The notes below the pieces were generated by a model, which ran no database searches, was not told where the DNA came from, and saw nothing but the letters and a program-made list of their open reading frames with translations. Position numbers and translations under genes: made by a program. From the NCBI GenBank assembly GCA_017408905.1, contig JAFQTU010000033.1:1-64000 (forward strand): a stretch of DNA of 64,000 nt, written 5' to 3'. The DNA comes from Mailhella sp. (GTDB taxonomy: Bacteria; Desulfobacterota; Desulfovibrionia; Desulfovibrionales; Desulfovibrionaceae). This document shows positions 51,275 through 61,083 of this stretch, one piece after another; within the stretch, counting starts at the first letter, position 1, and every line of letters begins with the position of its first letter.

Positions 51275-51994
51275 TCAGTCTGCCGCGCCGTCCTGCCTGT
51301 CGAGGCCGAGCTTCCTGTACCACAGCGGGTTATGCACCTTGGCGAAAGCCTTGGGCACGAAGCCCGTGAACATGGAGCGCAGGGCCGGGCCTTCGCCGGG
51401 CGCAAGGGCCGCCATGTAGATGTGGATGGGCAGGACTATGGCCATGAGCCCGGCACAGAGGAAATGCACGAACAGGCACCATTGCAGGAGCTCTTCCGTA
51501 CCAGCGTCGCCCGCCATGTGCACCATGAGTATGCCCGTGACCGCAAGGCCGAGGCTGGAAAGCACGGCGGCCACGGCGGCCAGCTTCTGCCCGGCATTGT
51601 AGAAGCTCTGGGCCGGGAGTTCGGTCTCCATGCCCATCTTGCGCATGGCCTTTTCACCGATGGTCAGGCGCAGGCCCTTGCGCATGCACCACACCATGTC
51701 GGAAGCGGGATGCAGGTCGGTGATTTCCTTGAGGAAGGGAAGAGCCTCCCCCTTGAAGCGGAACAGCAGATAGACGGTGTAGAGCATCACCCACACGCCG
51801 CCCACGATGACGTGCGCGTTGAGCAGGCGGTACGGGCCGCCCACAAGGCCGTTCCAGAAGTCCACCCAGCCCTGACTGACGGGCTGCATATACGGATTGT
51901 CGAGAAGGGCGAAGCCGGTGAACAGCAGGAAGAGCCAGCACAGGGCGTTGCTCCAGTGCATGAAGATAGCGGAGCGGGAATGGCGGCGTATCAT
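51275..51994 (-). CDS. Cytochrome b subunit, FdnI/PhsC-like
   Basis: 239 residues with four membrane helices. The first His sits in AIFMHWSNALCWLFLLFTGF, and further helix His residues in NAHVIVGGVWVML and FVHFLCAGLMAIVLPIHIYM would bind two b haems. QSFYNAGQKLAAVAAVLSSL matches the formate dehydrogenase-N gamma family. It passes electrons between the quinone pool and the Fe-S subunit. It starts in a 4-base overlap with the Fe-S gene; GGAGG lies 6 bases before the ATG. Confidence 0.88.
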   Translation of the reverse strand: MIRRHSRSAIFMHWSNALCWLFLLFTGFALLDNPYMQPVSQGWVDFWNGLVGGPYRLLNAHVIVGGVWVMLYTVYLLFRFKGEALPFLKEITDLHPASDMVWCMRKGLRLTIGEKAMRKMGMETELPAQSFYNAGQKLAAVAAVLSSLGLAVTGILMVHMAGDAGTEELLQWCLFVHFLCAGLMAIVLPIHIYMAALAPGEGPALRSMFTGFVPKAFAKVHNPLWYRKLGLDRQDGAAD

Positions 51995-52731
51995 GCGTTG
52001 CCTCCTTTGTCCTGATGCTCGTCGGTATGGCCGTGCTCACGGTCGGAAGGCAGGACGAGCTGCTTGAAGAACACGCCGATGACGCCGGCAAGGGCCGCTC
52101 CGGCCGTCCACTTCACGCCGGTGGACGCGTATTCCATAAGCTTGATAGGCGTGGGACTGTCCACCGCCTGCGGCCAGTCCGTAGGCGTGGTGGCGTCCAG
52201 ATAGGTGAGCGTGGGCCGGGTGTCGCAGTCCTTGGCGGCCACATAGACCTTCTTGCGGGAAGCGAGGATCTTCGCCACGTCGCTGTCCGGGTCGTCGGCA
52301 TCGCCGAACACACGGCAGTGCGTGGTACACACGGCCACGCAGGCCGGGATCTGGCCGGGGGCGGAGTGTTCGCGGCAGTAGTCGCATTTATCCGCCGTGC
52401 CGGTAACGTCGTTCTTGAAGCGCGCGCCGTAGGGGCAGGCCTTGATGCAGGAACCGCAGCCGATACAGCGGTCCTTGTCCACTTCCACTGCCCCGTCCGG
52501 GCCTTTGTAGGTAGCGCCGGTGGGGCAGGCGAACACGCATACGGGGTGGTCGCAGTGCATGCACGCCCCGGGCTGGACGCTCACGCCGCTCTTGCGGCTT
52601 TCGTCGTCGATCTCCCTCACCCAGTTGCGGCTTTTGCCGCCCGGTACCTTGTTCCTCTGCTGGCAGGCCACGATGCAGGCCTTGCAGTTGATGCATCTGC
52701 CGGAATCTATCGCCATAACATAGCGGGACAC
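51991..52731 (-). CDS. Four-cluster ferredoxin-type electron transfer subunit with membrane anchor
   Basis: 246 residues from a GTG start at 52731, chosen because GGAGG lies 5 bases before it and because it gives the usual MSRYVMAIDSGRC N-terminus. Four 4Fe-4S sites are visible: CINCKACIVAC, CMHCDHPVCVFAC, CIGCGSCIKAC and CDYC...C...C, as in PsrB/PhsB/FdnH. A single C-terminal membrane helix (about 205-225, TAGAALAGVIGVFFK) resembles FdnH and HybA and would anchor it. It bridges the molybdopterin subunit and the cytochrome b. Confidence 0.93.
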   Translation of the reverse strand: MSRYVMAIDSGRCINCKACIVACQQRNKVPGGKSRNWVREIDDESRKSGVSVQPGACMHCDHPVCVFACPTGATYKGPDGAVEVDKDRCIGCGSCIKACPYGARFKNDVTGTADKCDYCREHSAPGQIPACVAVCTTHCRVFGDADDPDSDVAKILASRKKVYVAAKDCDTRPTLTYLDATTPTDWPQAVDSPTPIKLMEYASTGVKWTAGAALAGVIGVFFKQLVLPSDREHGHTDEHQDKGGNA

Positions 52732-52787
52732 GAGAACCTCCAGAGAAATTGCTTGCTTGGATGCGCCTTCCGTCAGGCGGAGGCGGC

Positions 52788-54947
52788 TCAGGCCTTGACC
52801 AGCCTGCATCCCACGCCGTTGTGCTGGCAGGAGATGCGGTCCCAGCTATTGGGCACGATGCTGTTCACGGGCTCGCTGCGATTGGCGTCGAGCGGGGTAT
52901 CGGGGCAGAAATGCGAGGGCGTGAACACCGTGCCGGGAAGCACGCGGCTGGTGACTTCCGCCACGGCTTCCAGCCTTCCGGTCGGCGTTTCGAGGAAAAC
53001 GCGGTCGCCGTCCTTCACGCCGCACTGCTTCGCGGTCTCGGGGTGCACGCTCACCACGCGGCCGCGCGAGAACTGGGCCAGAGAAGGCGCGTAGTTGGTG
53101 AGCGTGTGCTGCCAGTGCCACACCACCTTGCCCTGCGTGAAGACGAGCGGGAATTCCGGCTTCGAGCCCTTGGCGTAGGGGCTGCCCTTGGGAGGCGTCC
53201 ATGTGATGCGGCCGAAAACGCGGTCCTTCACCACCATAGTACCGTCGGCCGTGCCCAGCTTTCCTTCGCGGAAGGTACAGCCGAGCAGTTCCGGGCCGTT
53301 CTCTTCGTAGATGGGCCACACGAGGCCGTCAGGCGAGGCCGCCACGCGCTTGCGGGAAAGGCCCTTCCACGAGGGCACTATCTCGCAGAACTTGTCGTAC
53401 ATGGCTTCCGGGCTGTCGAAGTAGGGGTACTTCTCGCCGAAGAGCGCCTTGCCCACGTCGCCGTAGAATTTCCATGCAGGTACGCAGGAGCCGGGGGCTT
53501 CCACTATCTTGTCGCGCCACACCGCTTCCTTCTCGTTGCCGTAGCCCGAGCCGGAGCTTTCCGGGCCGAAGGTCATGGGCACGAAAAGGTGCGAGACCTC
53601 GGCTTCCGGCGTCATGAAGAAGCCGCAGTGCACCACGAAGGGCACTTTCTGGATGGACTTGCGAACGCCGTTGGCATCGGGGTAGCGGCGGTAGGAGGAG
53701 TTGAGGAAAAGGATGTCGAGGCGCTTCTTGTCCATGGCAAGGCGCAGGCGGCGGAAGTTCATCTTGGCGGCCTTCACATGGCCTGCCATGGCTTCCACGA
53801 ATTCATGTTCGCCGCCGGGCTTGCCGCTGTGCATGGTGAGCACGCCGCGCCCTTCGCCTATCATGTTGCCGGTGATGCCCTGAAGCAGGATGATGCCGCG
53901 CACCGTGGGGATGCCGTTGGTGTAGCGGCACACCGAACCGCCGAACCACACGATGGTGCGGTCGCTGGCGGCGATGGCGCGGGCGAAGCCTTCCAGCTCC
54001 GCAGGGGCGATGCCGGTGAGCTCCTGCACCTTTTCGGGCGTGTAGGCAGAAGCGTCTTCGCGCAGAAGGTCGAGTTCAGGCACGAGCTCGCGGGCCTTTT
54101 CCTCGTCGAGGAGCTGGTTCTCAAGCAGGAAGCGGATGACGCCGAGCACGAGGGCGCCGTCGGTGCCGGGCTTGGGGCGGAGCTGGATATCGGCCCAGTC
54201 GCTGGTGCGGGTGCGGCGCGGATCGACATAGAGTATCTTCGCGCCCTTTTCCTTCGCCATGGGGAGCCAGCGGGAATAGGCGGGGTAGAGCTCGCAGAGG
54301 TTGGCGCCCCAGAGCAGGATGACCTTGGCCTTGGTGAGCTGGTCCACCGTGGTGGTGGGATTGCTCGTGCCGGACATGAGGTTCAGCATATTGGCGGCGG
54401 TGCTCACGCAGGTCTCGCCCGGGGGCATGGTGTGCACACAGCCTGCCATTCCAAGGGTGATGAGCGCGGCCATTTCGCTTTCGCGGCAGTCCCAGAGGGG
54501 CATGAGCATACCCATGCGGTCGCCTGCCTTTTCACCGTGCTTGTCCAGCGTTTCGCGCATCTTCTGCGCGGTGAGGGCCACGGCCTCGGCGTAGCTGATG
54601 CGCTTCCACGAACCATCGGCCTGCTTGAGCATGGGCTCGGTGAGGCGGTGCGGGCTGTCCATGAGTTCCACGATGGAAAGGCCCTTGGGGCACATGGAGC
54701 CGCCGGTCCAGCGGTTGCCCTTGTCGCCGATGATCTGCTGTATCTTCCCGCCGCGCACTTCGGCGTGGTAGGTGCAGCGCACCTGGCAGAAGGGGCAGTA
54801 GCCCTTCACGTAAGTGGCGGGGCCAAGGTCGGGCCCGGGCTTCTGCCCCATAGCCTGCGCCTTGCCGGGCAGGGATGCGGCCGCGCCGCCGACTGCGAGG
54901 GCGGCACTGAGTTTGAGGAAATTTCTACGGGAATAGCTGTCGGGCAT
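52788..54947 (-). CDS. TAT-exported molybdopterin oxidoreductase, catalytic subunit (Psr/Phs-like)
   Basis: 719 residues from ATG 54947, giving the twin-arginine leader SYSRRNFLKLSAALAVGG; upstream sequence in frame lacks a ribosome site. The 4Fe-4S site is CPFCQVRC...CPKG (near 50-85). GETCVSTAANM (near 180) probably carries the molybdenum-ligating Cys, as in polysulfide/thiosulfate reductases, so it is not a selenocysteine formate dehydrogenase. The C-terminal dinucleotide-binding domain (FTQGKVVWHWQHTLTN) is complete. Substrate could be thiosulfate, polysulfide, tetrathionate or another oxyanion. First gene of the three-gene operon; periplasmic. Confidence 0.9.
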   Translation of the reverse strand: MPDSYSRRNFLKLSAALAVGGAAASLPGKAQAMGQKPGPDLGPATYVKGYCPFCQVRCTYHAEVRGGKIQQIIGDKGNRWTGGSMCPKGLSIVELMDSPHRLTEPMLKQADGSWKRISYAEAVALTAQKMRETLDKHGEKAGDRMGMLMPLWDCRESEMAALITLGMAGCVHTMPPGETCVSTAANMLNLMSGTSNPTTTVDQLTKAKVILLWGANLCELYPAYSRWLPMAKEKGAKILYVDPRRTRTSDWADIQLRPKPGTDGALVLGVIRFLLENQLLDEEKARELVPELDLLREDASAYTPEKVQELTGIAPAELEGFARAIAASDRTIVWFGGSVCRYTNGIPTVRGIILLQGITGNMIGEGRGVLTMHSGKPGGEHEFVEAMAGHVKAAKMNFRRLRLAMDKKRLDILFLNSSYRRYPDANGVRKSIQKVPFVVHCGFFMTPEAEVSHLFVPMTFGPESSGSGYGNEKEAVWRDKIVEAPGSCVPAWKFYGDVGKALFGEKYPYFDSPEAMYDKFCEIVPSWKGLSRKRVAASPDGLVWPIYEENGPELLGCTFREGKLGTADGTMVVKDRVFGRITWTPPKGSPYAKGSKPEFPLVFTQGKVVWHWQHTLTNYAPSLAQFSRGRVVSVHPETAKQCGVKDGDRVFLETPTGRLEAVAEVTSRVLPGTVFTPSHFCPDTPLDANRSEPVNSIVPNSWDRISCQHNGVGCRLVKA

Positions 54948-55086
54948 GGCGTACCTGCCTTTGGGCCGGAGCGTGGCCTTGTTGGGAAAAGGGCTTTCGC
55001 CTGGAACGTGCATGAAAGGGAAAGCCGGAACGCTCCGGCTTTCTGCCGAACCAGCCACGCGGGGTGGGAAGCTCGGCGGGGAAGGA

Positions 55087-55121
55087 TAAAAAAGGCACGG
55101 AGCCCGCAGAAGCCCCGTGCC
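55087..55121 (-). terminator. Terminator after the TGA-containing gene
   Basis: On the minus strand GGCACGG pairs with CCGTGCC around a GC-rich loop and is followed by TTTTTT. Confidence 0.85.
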
Positions 55122-55130
55122 AGATCGATG

Positions 55131-56615
55131 CTATTTGAACACGTCCTTGCCGCGCAGGTGTTCATCGTACATCTTGCCGTACCAGCGGCTGATGAAGTGA
55201 ACAGTGGAGCGGCAGGCCTTGCCTATGACAAGGTCGATGTTCTTGCCCTCGGCGCGAGTAGCGAGGTTGCCAGTCTTGGCCTTAGCGGTCTCGACATGCC
55301 AAGCCTTCACAGTCTTGCCGTCAAACTCATCGATAACGATCTTGAAGTGGTTGTCCGGACCAACAAACACGTTGTTGGCTCCGCCATCGAGGACGATCTC
55401 TTCCTTATTGGCGATCATGACCTCGTGCGGATAGGTGCAGGTTGCTCAGGTCTCGGGGCGTGCGAGGAAACGGCTATCGGTAAACCAGTCCGAACCGTTC
55501 TGCACGAGCTTGACGTCAGTGTAGGCAACCAGATCCACCTTGCCTTCCTTGAAGGGATTGCCGGGGCGGATGTTGAGGTGGACAAGGGTCTTGCCGTCCT
55601 TGGAGACGACGTAGCACTTGTCGCGCTCGACCATGGACTGGAGGAGCCACTTGGCATTCTTGGAATCGATGTAGAGCTTCTTGGTGGTGACGGCGCCAGA
55701 CTTTTCGGTGATGGCGACTTCCACGCTGTCCTTGCCGATGTTCTTCACTGCCACCTTGGCATCGCCCACGCTGAAGGCCGCGCCGCTGGCGTAGGAACCG
55801 TAAACGGGTTCGGAAGTGGAAACATAGAGGTCAGTGCAGCTGTCGGTGCCGAATTCGCGCACATACACGTTGTTCTTGTCGTCGATCTTATCCACGACAA
55901 CGTAGCTGCGGCCCACAGTGGCCACGTTGTTGCCGTAGTCGAAACGGGAGAGGTTGTTCTCCTCGTTGGGGACGACATGACCGGCAGGCTGATTGGAACC
56001 CTTCACCAGAGAGCCGTCGGAAGCATCGTTGGTGATGCTGGCACCGACGTGCACAGGGAAGGAAGCGCCGTAGTAGTTGCCGGTGGTCTTCACGATCTTG
56101 AAGTTGGCTTCCTTGCCGTCGGCCAGGCCGTAGGTGGACCAGCCTTCAACGTACATGAGCTGCCAGCCGCGGGACTTGTCCGCATTGCTGGTGATAACGT
56201 CGCCTTCCTTCATGACCACGTCGCGCACCACGTCGCGCACGTAGCGGTCGACGATCACGCGGTAGGTCTTGCCGGCGAGGGTGATGGGCTCGTTGTCGAA
56301 GGGATACCAGTTGCTGGAACGCGACGTGGTGTAAAGGCCTTCGGAAGGAATGATGATCTTGCCGTCTTTGATGTAGCTCTGACGGATAACGACACCGTCG
56401 TTAATGGTGCGCACAGTGCCAAGCGCGGTCTTTTCAACACGATTGTTGACAAGGCCGATGAGCTTGGCGACCACGGCAGCATTATTAGCCGGAGATTTCA
56501 TCGCGGCACTGCCTTCGACAGGCGCGACACCGGCCAGAGCCACTCCGTTCAGACTGGCGGCGAGCAGCAGAGCAAGAGACAGCTTGCCGACGGTCTTGAG
56601 AGTACCCTTGGTCAT
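55131..56615 (-). CDS. Secreted protein with an in-frame TGA: candidate selenoprotein (Sec-x-x-Cys)
   Basis: Read through the TGA at 55446-55448, this is one 494-residue protein. A signal peptide (about 1-28, LSLALLLAASLNGVALA) sends it out of the cytoplasm; the body is beta-rich with no known domain I can name. The TGA falls at residue 390 in ...RPET-(TGA)-ATCTYPHEV, giving Sec-Ala-Thr-Cys, a redox-type UxxC. The frame then stays open for 104 codons with no other stop, ending just before a terminator. Stems near the TGA could form a SECIS (see findings), but none is a clear match. The alternative is a nonsense mutation of a CxxC gene. GAGGAG precedes the ATG at 56615. Confidence 0.7.
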
Positions 56616-56748
56616 AATGACTCCTCGGTTTTATTGATGTTCCGCCCCGGAAAAGCTGCTATGCGGCGGTTCTGCGCCCGTGCGCATGGTACTTCACCGG
56701 GGGGCTCAGGCTTCCCCATGAAGCCCCGGAACGGTAAGTCGGAAAGGG

Positions 56749-57045
56749 TTAGCAGTTGCAGTCGAAGCTGGCCACGCCTTCGATCTGGAACTTTTCGTTG
56801 ATCTGCTTGATCTTGGCGTCGTCGATGCCTTCGATCTCCTTCAGATCTTCGTACTTGGTGAAGTCGCCCACGTTTTCGCGGAATTCCACGATCTTGGCGG
56901 CGAGTTCAGGGCCGATGTTGGGGTCGGCGGAAAGTTCGGACAGCGTGGCGGTGTTCAGATTGGCCTTTTCGGCGGCCATGGCAGTGCCGGAGAAGGTGAG
57001 GACGACAGCGATGGCCGCGCAGGCGAGAAGGGTCTTGAGATTCAT
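56749..57045 (-). CDS. Secreted ComEA-like helix-hairpin-helix protein
   Basis: 98 residues. A signal peptide (about 1-24) precedes a single ComEA-type HhH pair: ANLNTATLSELSADPNIGPELAAKIVEFRE, read in pieces, then DLKEIEGIDDAKIKQI. Such domains bind DNA in competence systems, but no comEC or pilus gene is nearby. It ends SFDCNC, an unusual two-cysteine C-terminus. It has its own promoter and lies 133 bases before the TGA-containing gene, with which it may be cotranscribed. Confidence 0.88.
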   Translation of the reverse strand: MNLKTLLACAAIAVVLTFSGTAMAAEKANLNTATLSELSADPNIGPELAAKIVEFRENVGDFTKYEDLKEIEGIDDAKIKQINEKFQIEGVASFDCNC

Positions 57046-57125: not shown

Positions 57126-57267
57126 ATTAAATGTAGCGCATAGCGGAAAGAGTTCTGCCGCATGGGAACAGGGCCATGCCTTGCATAATTCCCCTTCCTC
57201 TTATAAGCGATGGGTATGGCGGCAGCCCAATGCCGCAGGAGGTGAAGCAGAAGAAAAAGGCACAGGC

Positions 57268-57429
57268 GATGCAGATGCTCACATCGTGATGTGAAGGGAA
57301 ACCGGTGAGAAACCGGTACGGACCCGCCGCCGTGATCGGGGACGAACTCCGCAGGACGCCATTGTTCCGAAAGGGATGAGAAGGCGCGGAGCAAGGAAGA
57401 TCCGAAAGTCGGAAGACCGGCACTGCATC
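57268..57429 (+). promoter_or_regulatory. Cobalamin riboswitch
   Basis: The B12-box region is readable: GGGAAACCGGTGAGAAACC, GTACGGACCCGCCGCCGTGA and GAAAGTCGGAAGACCGGC, in the order and spacing of the cobalamin (AdoCbl-type) aptamer. The closing helix P1 is GATGCAG (57268-57274) with CTGCATC (57423-57429). It should repress the downstream B12-uptake operon when the vitamin is plentiful. A weak promoter candidate is TTGCAT/TATAAG at 57181-57207 (15-base spacer). Confidence 0.92.
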
Positions 57430-57530
57430 AGGCATACGAACAGGGAAGAGCCCACGCGCTGTTATGCGTTCCCAAAACGGGCCGCCCCTGCCGGGATGCC
57501 TCCCACAGTATTCATCAACGGGGAACTTTG

Positions 57531-59387
57531 ATGAGGAAACTTTTCAGTATCGCCGCCCTGTGCGGCCTGTTCGCTCATGCGCCCGCCCTTGCCGCCGATA
57601 TGCGCATGGACGACATTGTTATTTCAGCGAACAAGATCGAGAGCTCCGCTTCCGAAGCGGCTTCCAGCGTGAGCGTCATCACGGCGGAAGACATGGAAGC
57701 CCGGCAGAGCCGTACCCTCATGGACGCCCTGAAGGCAGAGCCCGGCGTCTTCATGGGCAATGCGCAGGGCCCGGCAGGCGTGAACACCCTTATGATACGC
57801 GGCTCCAAGTCCCGCTACACCCAGCTTCGTTTCAACGGCATCCCCCTGCGCGAAGCCGGGGCCATAGAAGGCAATTACGACGCCCTCCTCGGTTCGCTCC
57901 AGCTTGCCCCCGGCTCTGTCAGCCGTATCGAGGTGCTCAAGGGGGCGCAGGGCTCTCTCTACGGCAGCAGTGCGGCAGGCGGCGTGGTCAGCATCTATTC
58001 CGGCGGCAGGTGGGATTCCGGCTTCAGCGCCTCGCTCGACCTGAGCGGCGGCAGTTATGGCACGTTCACGGCTTCCGGCCGGATAGCCAGCGGCGATGAC
58101 CGATATTATGTCGATTTCGTTCCGATGTTCACCCGTTCCGACGGGCATGAACGCCTATGGTATGAGCAGGGCGGCTTCATCCTTGGGGCAGGCCTGCGCC
58201 TTTCGGAAAAGACCAGCCTCGAGCTGACCTCCCTTGCTATGTCGTTCGAAGGCGCTTCCTTCGACGCGCCGTTCTACTCCGGCGGCCAATGGTCGAAGCT
58301 CGTGCGCTATGGCGACGACAAGAAGACCAGCGGCCATGTGATGCTGCACGGCCTGACCCTGACCCATGAGGCCAGCGACATATGGACCGTTCAGGGCCGC
58401 GCCGCGCTGACAAGGTCGGAGCGCCGCTACCGCCACTACGGCACGGAATATCTGGGCGACACCGCCTATCTGGAACTGCTCAACACCCTCAAGCCTCTGG
58501 AAAACCTGACCTTCATCGCCGGTACTGAATACGAGGCCCAGCAGATGGAGCTGGAATCGTACGGCGTGAAGGCGCAGGAGCAGAACGCCGGGGCTTTTTC
58601 CGCCTACGCCAAGGGGATACTTTCCTTCCTCGGCAGAAAGCTCGTCTTGAGTGCCGGGGGGCGCTTCAGCAAGCATGAGGACTTCGAGAGCAAGGCTACG
58701 TGGGATGCGGGGCTTTCCTATGCCTTCGATACGGGAACGCGACTCTTCGGCAACGTGGCCACGGGCTTCTATGCGCCTTCGCTCTATCAGCGCTATGGCG
58801 ACGGGAGCTGGGTGAAGGGCAGTCCCGCCCTCGAACCCGAAAGCTCCGTCAGCTATGAACTCGGTGTGGAACAGGCGCTGTGGGACGACAGGCTCGTGCT
58901 GAACGCGGCCGTATTCACCACGGAATACGAAGATCAGGTGGCCTACGATATCGCCCGCCAGGCCTACTATAACGCCGACGAGGCCAAGGTGCGCGGCTTC
59001 GAGCTGGGGTTCAGCGTCCAGCCCGGAGAACTGATGCGCATCGATCTCGGCTGGACCCACGTCTCGGCCAAGCAGAAAACAGCGGGCGGAACATGGGAGC
59101 ACAGCTTCCAGATGCCGGACGACAGGCTCACAGGCACGGTCTGCCTTTTCCCGATGGACAGGCTGAAGCTCTCCCTCACGGGGCGCTGGGAAGACAAACG
59201 GAAAGACGCCGACGGCACTGTCATGGACGATGCCTTCTTCACGCTGGATGCGGCGGCTTCGTACGAAGTCAGCGACCATATGCAGGTGTACGCCAAGGTC
59301 AGCAATCTTCTGGATGAGGACTATGCCGTCTATGGCTGGGATATGCCCGGCATCCATGCTGTGGCCGGTGTGCGCTTCACCTTCTGA
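57531..59387 (+). CDS. btuB: TonB-dependent vitamin B12 receptor
   Basis: 618 residues, the size of BtuB. Signal peptide (1-22), then a TonB-box-like DDIVISANKI, plug domain (SVSVITAEDMEARQSRTLMD, VNTLMIRGSKSRYTQLRFNG, IEVLKGAQGSLYGSSAAGGV), then the 22-strand barrel ending in the Phe-terminal signature VRFTF. The riboswitch assigns cobalamin as cargo. ATG 57531 is preferred to the TTG 3 bases upstream; GGGGAA lies 7 bases before it. First gene of btuB-btuF-tonB-exbB-exbD. Confidence 0.94.
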   Translation: MRKLFSIAALCGLFAHAPALAADMRMDDIVISANKIESSASEAASSVSVITAEDMEARQSRTLMDALKAEPGVFMGNAQGPAGVNTLMIRGSKSRYTQLRFNGIPLREAGAIEGNYDALLGSLQLAPGSVSRIEVLKGAQGSLYGSSAAGGVVSIYSGGRWDSGFSASLDLSGGSYGTFTASGRIASGDDRYYVDFVPMFTRSDGHERLWYEQGGFILGAGLRLSEKTSLELTSLAMSFEGASFDAPFYSGGQWSKLVRYGDDKKTSGHVMLHGLTLTHEASDIWTVQGRAALTRSERRYRHYGTEYLGDTAYLELLNTLKPLENLTFIAGTEYEAQQMELESYGVKAQEQNAGAFSAYAKGILSFLGRKLVLSAGGRFSKHEDFESKATWDAGLSYAFDTGTRLFGNVATGFYAPSLYQRYGDGSWVKGSPALEPESSVSYELGVEQALWDDRLVLNAAVFTTEYEDQVAYDIARQAYYNADEAKVRGFELGFSVQPGELMRIDLGWTHVSAKQKTAGGTWEHSFQMPDDRLTGTVCLFPMDRLKLSLTGRWEDKRKDADGTVMDDAFFTLDAAASYEVSDHMQVYAKVSNLLDEDYAVYGWDMPGIHAVAGVRFTF

Positions 59388-59401
59388 GAGCCCGGGGTGA
59401 T

Positions 59402-60331
59402 GTGGTGAAATGCTTTTCCTGCCTTTTCCGGGCCGTTCTGTTCGCCCTTTTCCTTGCCCTGCCCGGGCTGGCCTCTGCCGCGCCCGAAGCAGGCCACGAA
59501 CTGAGGCTCATCGCCCTCGGCGCTCCCGCCGTGGAGATGGTCTGCGCCCTCGGGCTGGAACACAGGCTGGCCGCCCGCTCCTCGTGGGACAGCTTCCCCC
59601 CTTCCATCCAAGGCCTGCCCGATATCGGCACGCCCTACCAGCCCAGCCTCGAACGCATCCTCAGCCTGAAGCCCGACCTCATCCTTCTGGACAGCCGCCT
59701 CGGCACATTGCCGGAGCAGATGAGGGCCTGCGACGTCGAAGTCCTGCCCGTGAACGCCTATAACCCTGCGGAAGTCGTCCCTGCCGTCGAAGCCCTTGCC
59801 AAGCGCCTTGGGGTGGAGCGGCGTGGGGACGAGCTGGCCGCTGAACTGCGCGCCCTGCGCGATTTCGTGCGGGAAAGGCTGACAGGCCTTCCTGAACAGG
59901 AACGCAAAGGCGGCTTCATGCTCACGAGCGCCGCCGACCTGTTCTGCGTCGCCCCGGAAAGCGGCTGTACCCTGCTGGAGGAGGCCGGGGCGCGGAATCT
60001 GGCGGCAGGCAGGGGAAGCCCCTTCCCCCTGCTCTCGCTGGAGAGCCTCGCCGCCTCGAAGCCCGACTTCCTTCTCGTGCCGACAAAGGCGGGGCAGACA
60101 GTACGGCAGAAGGCGGCCTTGGAGCGGCGCATCCGTTCCGTGCTCCCGGAAACGTGCCGTGCCATCGCCTTGGAGGAAGGGCATACCTTCGGCCTGCGCT
60201 CCTTCCTTGGGATGCTTGAGCTTGCCGCAGAACTTTATCCCGCCCGGATAACGCCGGAAGAGGTCCAGTGGCGGAAGCGCGCCTTTCTCGAAGCCTTCTT
60301 TCCTTCCGCCATGCAGGAGGGAAGGCCATGA
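59402..60331 (+). CDS. btuF: Periplasmic cobalamin-binding protein, BtuF-like
   Basis: 309 residues from a GTG start 14 bases after btuB (a second GTG 3 bases on is as likely). Signal peptide to about 26 (LFLALPGLASAAPEA), then the helical-backbone binding fold: RLIALGAPAVEMVCALGLE, LPDIGTPYQPSLERILSLKPDLILLD. It would hand B12 to an inner-membrane BtuCD importer, which is not in the window. Its stop overlaps the tonB start (ATGA). Confidence 0.85.
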   Translation: MVKCFSCLFRAVLFALFLALPGLASAAPEAGHELRLIALGAPAVEMVCALGLEHRLAARSSWDSFPPSIQGLPDIGTPYQPSLERILSLKPDLILLDSRLGTLPEQMRACDVEVLPVNAYNPAEVVPAVEALAKRLGVERRGDELAAELRALRDFVRERLTGLPEQERKGGFMLTSAADLFCVAPESGCTLLEEAGARNLAAGRGSPFPLLSLESLAASKPDFLLVPTKAGQTVRQKAALERRIRSVLPETCRAIALEEGHTFGLRSFLGMLELAAELYPARITPEEVQWRKRAFLEAFFPSAMQEGRP

Positions 60332-61083
60332 TACCCTTCCGATACTTCGTTGCCGTTTCCGTGGCGGCGCACGCCCTGCTTCTGGGGGTGAAGGACTTCG
60401 GCTGGCGGCAGGAGGCCGCCCTGCGCTTTGCCCCGCCGGAGAGCACGGTGGCCGTCCGCTTTGCCGAAGTCACGCCCCCGCCCCTTGGAAGCGCGGAGGA
60501 AAAGGCCGCCCCGGCAGAACAGACGCCCACGCCGGAAGCCGCGTCAGCCCTGCCCGTGGAAGCGCCGAAAGCTCCGCCCGTCCCTGCCACGGAAGAAAAA
60601 ACGGCGGCAGAGCGGCCCGCCACCCCGGCGAAGAAGGCAACGGCCTTCCCGAAGAAAACGGAAGCGCCGCGAAAAAAGCCCTCTCCTTCCCCGAAGGCGA
60701 AACCCGCACCTCCCCCGCCTACGGAGGGAGCAACGGAAGAACCGCGTTCCGCCCGCCAGCCTGTGCCGCCCTCCCCGCCGACACCTGAGCCGAAAAAGGA
60801 ACTCGTGCTCGGCCACAGCGGCGCCCCTTCCTACGCGCGTTTCATCCCGCCGGACTACCCTGAGCGGGCGCGAAGGAGAAACCTAGAGGGCAAGGTCCTT
60901 CTGCGTGTGCTTATCAGTGCGGAGGGCCGGGCCAAGGCCGTCGAAGTGCTCGAATCTTCCCATCCCGAATTCACGCTGGCGGCCCGGGCATCGGCCCGCC
61001 GTTCCCGCTATGTCCCCATGAAGCGCCTCGGCCAGCCCGAGGAAGCCTGGGTGCTCATCCCCTTCCATTTCAAATTGAGGTGA
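60328..61083 (+). CDS. tonB: TonB energy-transducing protein
   Basis: 251 residues from ATG 60328 (AGGAGG 6 bases before, ATGA overlap with btuF). One N-terminal anchor helix (about 4-22), a long Pro/Lys/Ala-rich periplasmic span (about 60-160), and the C-terminal TonB fold (YARFIPPDYPERARRRNLEGKV, LLRVLISAEGRAKAVEVLESS). Dedicated partner for BtuB, co-regulated by the riboswitch. Confidence 0.92.
   Translation: MIPFRYFVAVSVAAHALLLGVKDFGWRQEAALRFAPPESTVAVRFAEVTPPPLGSAEEKAAPAEQTPTPEAASALPVEAPKAPPVPATEEKTAAERPATPAKKATAFPKKTEAPRKKPSPSPKAKPAPPPPTEGATEEPRSARQPVPPSPPTPEPKKELVLGHSGAPSYARFIPPDYPERARRRNLEGKVLLRVLISAEGRAKAVEVLESSHPEFTLAARASARRSRYVPMKRLGQPEEAWVLIPFHFKLR

Follow-up and report, generated by a model that had tools for sequence, protein, structure and literature searches.

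Layout of the locus

We analyzed a 64,000-nucleotide stretch of genomic DNA from a Mailhella species (hereafter termed the window). A frame on its minus strand (55131–56615) starts at ATG 56615, preceded by CCGAGGAG with a GAGGAG site, and runs for 389 sense codons to a TGA at 55446–55448. This TGA is the only interruption of the frame, which continues for 104 sense codons to a TAG (55131–55133) and is followed by a terminator-like hairpin of 12 pairs and T6 (55094–55121, minus strand). Translated with TGA as selenocysteine (Sec, U), and in line with our family alignments, the gene would encode a 494-residue selenoprotein with Sec at position 390, in the motif R-P-E-T-U-A-T-C. Frame layout, coordinates and terminator are as described in the original prediction, which had proposed a secreted selenoprotein from the letters of the window alone, and the translation likewise contains the U-A-T-C context and the signal-peptide-like N terminus. 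Six of the eight neighboring genes checked end in TGA, which is thus an ordinary stop codon in the Mailhella genome.

Two conserved neighbors, assigned by Pfam matches and synteny, lie on the same strand: a gene for a small exported HhH (ComEA-like; PF12836) protein ending in C-N-C (56749–57045), and one for the catalytic subunit of a Tat-type molybdopterin oxidoreductase (52788–54947). A 4Fe-4S electron-transfer subunit (51991–52809; Pfam, synteny) and a cytochrome b561-type membrane subunit (51275–51994; PF01292, synteny) are encoded next to the latter, again on the minus strand. The plus strand opposite the selenoprotein and molybdoenzyme genes contains an open frame of 1350 codons (52749–56801). 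The homologues likewise have long antisense frames, and this one probably results from codon bias, as TTA, CTA, and TCA codons are few. Farther along the plus strand we located a cobalamin riboswitch (57257–57439; Rfam RF00174, 89.5 bits), 3′ of which genes for a BtuB-like TonB-dependent receptor, a periplasmic binding protein and a TonB-like protein (57528–61083) follow; together they probably form a vitamin B12 uptake locus.

Conservation of the TGA codon and the protein family

We searched for homologues in relatives, in the order and in a sample of the phylum, and identified 26 homologous genes that retain the same TGA; they come from 23 genomes of the phylum. These comprise clade A, to which the window gene belongs (11 genes; RPETUATC/ASC), clade B (5 genes; RPDTUASC), clade C (3 genes), clade D from a distant family (4 genes; RPDTUSTC), clade E from a Desulfomicrobium-type genus (2 genes, L071 and L089; IPETUATC) and one relative of the large forms described below (G428, 1 gene; UPQC). 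Genome G062 carries a member of the family. The 25 other genes that share the TGA of the window gene also conserve the codons downstream of it, so the read-through frame noted in the original prediction does not reflect chance. Homologues do not end at the TGA but run on past it, and Cys is the only sense codon seen at this site in relatives.

Cys-containing homologues from the same phylum belong to the same protein family and carry Cys in place of Sec, without a TGA. Two of them consist of a single unit (L025 with TGT and L037 with TGC; RPEICAEC) and share 46–48% sequence identity with the window protein. Five of the larger forms of ∼1000 residues (L073, L083, and L131–L133) differ in that they are tandem duplications with the CxxC motif in the second unit, where it reads RPDVCGHC. 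In L073 and L083, the CxxC has been kept in the second unit and apparently lost from the first.

Ten gene pairs analyzed by the Nei-Gojobori method gave dN/dS values of ∼0.07–0.30 for the downstream 104 codons, indicative of purifying selection; the downstream values are lower than or similar to the upstream ones in eight of the ten pairs and slightly higher in two. The genome of the window encodes tRNA-Sec (selC, above cut-off), selA, selB, and selD, the complete set whose presence had been named as a check on the prediction. Its selD gene contains an in-frame TGA of its own, as does fdhA (formate dehydrogenase α); both are already known as selenoprotein genes. We detected selA in all 28 further genomes tested, among them those with only Cys forms; selA is therefore consistent with Sec but does not tell genomes with the Sec form apart from those with the Cys form. 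A conserved TGA, Cys homologues and low downstream dN/dS together make up the usual comparative case for a selenoprotein gene, here at the level of sequence, and the TGA at 55446–55448 is almost certainly read as Sec in a UxxC motif. In two relatives (G008 and G010), metagenome-assembled contigs break within ∼20 bases of the Sec-TGA (L020 and L015), perhaps due to paralogues with near-identical DNA at this position.

The window protein matched none of the Pfam and NCBIfam models, not even weakly, and the homologues scanned returned only sub-threshold noise. No match was found among PDB sequences. An AlphaFold model computed from 21 sequences (pLDDT 86, pTM 0.85) is mostly β with a final helix; the region after Sec is confidently folded, and a single fold spans the Sec site. 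Foldseek returned no credible relative in the PDB (the listed matches have TM-scores ≤0.15). Taking the missing profile matches, the mostly β model and the lack of a PDB fold match together, the protein is not of the thioredoxin fold, as far as can be told.

A 2026 review tabulates 119 prokaryotic selenoprotein families and subfamilies (PMC13188914). None of them fits the window protein, with those lacking an NCBIfam or Pfam model compared by description only (PMC13188914). UxxC-containing families include thioredoxin, DsbA/DsbG-like and thiol:disulfide interchange proteins, GrdB and others (PMC13188914). The window family resembles these in having Sec in a UxxC motif and homologues with CxxC, and is probably redox active, but we found no sequence or fold relation to them, and its members are large, mostly β and exported. 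A recent predictor had a Desulfomicrobium orale genome in its test set and listed no new selenoprotein for it (PMC12013277), and our literature search on selenocysteine in Mailhella returned nothing. The window gene thus appears to define a new, previously undescribed family of exported selenoproteins in a gut-type relative of sulfate reducers.

Gene neighborhood and possible function

The molybdopterin oxidoreductase, 4Fe-4S subunit and cytochrome b561 genes are found beside the selenoprotein gene in clade A (where some contigs end before all neighboring genes appear), next to two of the three clade C genes and in both clade E genomes. Gene order around this set varies, and the small exported HhH protein is usually alongside. 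Among the tandem Cys forms, L148 has HhH, Fe-S, and molybdoenzyme genes nearby, and L110 a molybdoenzyme gene. The set is not adjacent to the clade B, clade D, and single-unit Cys genes, and the functional link is hence not universal. The oxidoreductase itself scores below every NCBIfam cut-off, with the best partial scores coming from formate dehydrogenase, nitrate reductase and thiosulfate reductase models. All 11 HhH proteins examined beside members of the family have C-x-C at the C terminus, suggesting that this tail is conserved for redox chemistry or metal binding.

We tentatively propose that the selenoprotein could act as a periplasmic thiol/selenol redox protein together with the molybdopterin oxidoreductase and the CxC-tailed HhH protein, for example by reducing or loading the CxC tail. 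It is also conceivable, if somewhat doubtful, that the family has a structural or surface role, in which the Sec/Cys pairs would form a stabilizing bond or bind metal and take no part in molybdoenzyme redox chemistry. Many family members stand alone, and the mostly β model has neither a thioredoxin fold nor any fold match, as might be expected for such a role; yet purely structural roles rarely keep Sec, UxxC and W-H-x-E are invariant in the family, and co-localization with the molybdoenzyme operon and the CxC-tailed protein recurs in several clades. Whatever its role, the family adds an unusual type to the selenoproteins, large, exported and mostly β, with no thioredoxin fold and recurring near a respiratory-type molybdoenzyme.

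Conserved RNA hairpins downstream of the UGA

In the bSECIS model of Zhang and Gladyshev, a stem of 4–16 bp with a stability of ≤ −7.5 kcal/mol carries a loop of 3–9 nt with a G in its first two positions, and the apical loop lies 16–37 nt from the UGA (PMC13188914). A scan of the window gene by these rules found no hairpin in range, and the +15 to +42 region is at the level of the null (z 0.3); a canonical-position hairpin (z ∼0) was accordingly rejected. Control scans in the same genome recovered canonical hairpins in selD (loop AGUUG, 19 nt) and fdhA (loop GGUC, 18 nt). The original prediction had suggested a SECIS formed by pairing of GACC(U) with AGGUC. We rejected this pairing for lack of conservation: the pairing exists only in the window gene and one relative, and others have AAGUC or AGAUC instead. 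The published type of hairpin is thus missing from the range downstream of the TGA, and a different one, located farther away, is conserved.

This hairpin, which we term P2 (55359–55379, minus strand), has the sequence GCCAACAA-CGUGU-UUGUUGGU and is a candidate SelB-binding SECIS. Its apical loop (55367–55371, minus strand) is found 74 nt after the UGA in the window. A near-invariant CCARCAACGUGUUUGYUGG is present in all 22 readable genes of clades A–D, with the loop 71–74 nt after the UGA; the loop is CGUGU in all genes but one (CGUGC). Proteins of different clades are mostly 34–47% identical. Over the five P2 codons, synonymous identity between the clades is complete (393/393 comparisons), compared with 54% elsewhere in the gene. 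This is the highest value of 272 windows compared along the gene, and TTT, GTT, and GCT are kept despite being minority codons. One P2 pair changes from A-U to G-C in 7 of 16 sequences, with two amino acids changing together (NNVFVGP to SNVFAGP). Both states occur within more than one clade, and the change has therefore probably arisen repeatedly; covariation is limited to this one pair, the never-varying pairs giving no information on pairing. The single-unit Cys homologues lack P2, as well as the stem P1 described below.

P2 resembles a canonical bSECIS in that it is a stable hairpin in the coding region after the UGA, with a stem of 7–8 bp, a G in the first two positions of its CGUGU loop and, in the window, a stability of −12.5 kcal/mol, below the −7.5 limit. 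It differs in the position of its loop, which at 74 nt lies outside the 16–37 nt spacing and about twice as far from the UGA as this model permits, and in having a conserved spacer stem in between, and we thus regard it as a variant and not as a canonical member. Given the expected 16–37 nt (PMC13188914), the distance from the UGA in itself counts against a SECIS role for P2.

The intervening stem, P1 (55380–55431, minus strand), extends from +18 to +69 relative to the U of the UGA and is closed by UCCGC/GCGGA in the window. A P1 stem forms in all 20 distinct displaced-type sequences, in each case closing adjacent to P2. The closing sequences vary by clade (UCCGC/GCGGA, GCUG/CAGC, UUUAUCC/GGAUAAG, and CAUCGAGG/CCUCGAUG), with compensatory changes among the clades. 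P1 is more stable than a synonymous-codon resampling null (z −1.3 to −4.3; a modest −1.5 and −2.1 in two computations for the window gene), and the same stretch in the Cys genes has z ∼0 against this null. RNAalifold run on the family alignment recovered P2 but missed P1, as the pairing register of the latter differs from clade to clade. A covariance model of the P1-P2 region, searched in the genus, returned essentially this selenoprotein family alone plus a few weak outliers; inspection of two outlier loci revealed no convincing recoding site. Rfam has no match to the P1-P2 region.

These features suggest how the UGA may be decoded. After the UGA, a linker of ∼12–17 nt would remain unpaired, about the length under the ribosome, which covers ∼11 nt of mRNA (PMC4513850). 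The spacer stem P1, of variable sequence, would then take 40–50 nt out of the path, and the adjoining, near-invariant P2 would serve as the SelB-binding hairpin. With P1 folded, the path from the UGA to the P2 loop shortens to ∼20–25 nt, inside the canonical range, so that P2 would be presented at an effective spacing like that of a canonical SECIS. From geometry and conservation we infer ordinary SelB-dependent decoding, with P2 brought back into range by P1. A displaced, bipartite SECIS of this kind is probable; the conservation and structure of the RNA were computed here, and SelB binding by P2 and the spacer role of P1 are what they point to.

It is unlikely that Sec is inserted with SelB recruited by P1 or by a weak structure adjacent to the UGA, P2 being kept for another RNA-level reason such as pausing. 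P1 does start where a canonical SECIS would, and its hairpin formally satisfies the spacing and loop rule in some genes of clades C and D, but its loop sequence and register vary between clades, whereas the P2 loop is nearly invariant and contains a G-U, as do the loops of selD and fdhA from the same genome; the window gene, moreover, has no qualifying canonical hairpin. For the displaced bipartite SECIS and the protein taken jointly, a 494-residue exported selenoprotein of a new family with a P1-P2 element appears very probable from the sequences compared. That the TGA is a true stop, yielding a 389-residue protein followed by a separate gene or remnant of 104 codons, is exceedingly improbable even though genes of this genome do normally stop at TGA and ATG 55418 opens a 95-codon frame, since 26 genes have the same TGA, Cys homologues read through in frame, dN/dS is low on both sides and one folded model spans the site.

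Other members of the family have a different arrangement. The clade E genes share the family, the TGA and the U-A-T-C motif but have no P2; instead, they contain a canonical SECIS at +15 to +42 (loop AGGU, 22 nt, bulged U, z ∼ −3). The G428 gene likewise has a canonical hairpin (loop GGUCU, 21 nt). We consider it likely that there is a second bacterial SECIS architecture, in which a SelB hairpin >70 nt away is returned by a spacer stem, and that lineages of this family have switched among displaced SECIS, canonical SECIS, and Cys. This suggests that the distance rule for bacterial selenoproteins is really about three-dimensional spacing, in which case genes would escape searches limited to 16–37 nt. 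Since the SECIS type switches within a single family, the question of geometry can be tested directly. The single-unit proteins may have started out with the displaced SECIS, which would later have been replaced by a canonical SECIS in clade E and by Cys. In our family tree, where the branch order among clades A–E and the Cys groups is not fully resolved, clade E, with its canonical SECIS, and the clade of single-unit Cys genes group with A and C, and the displaced type is also found in B and D.
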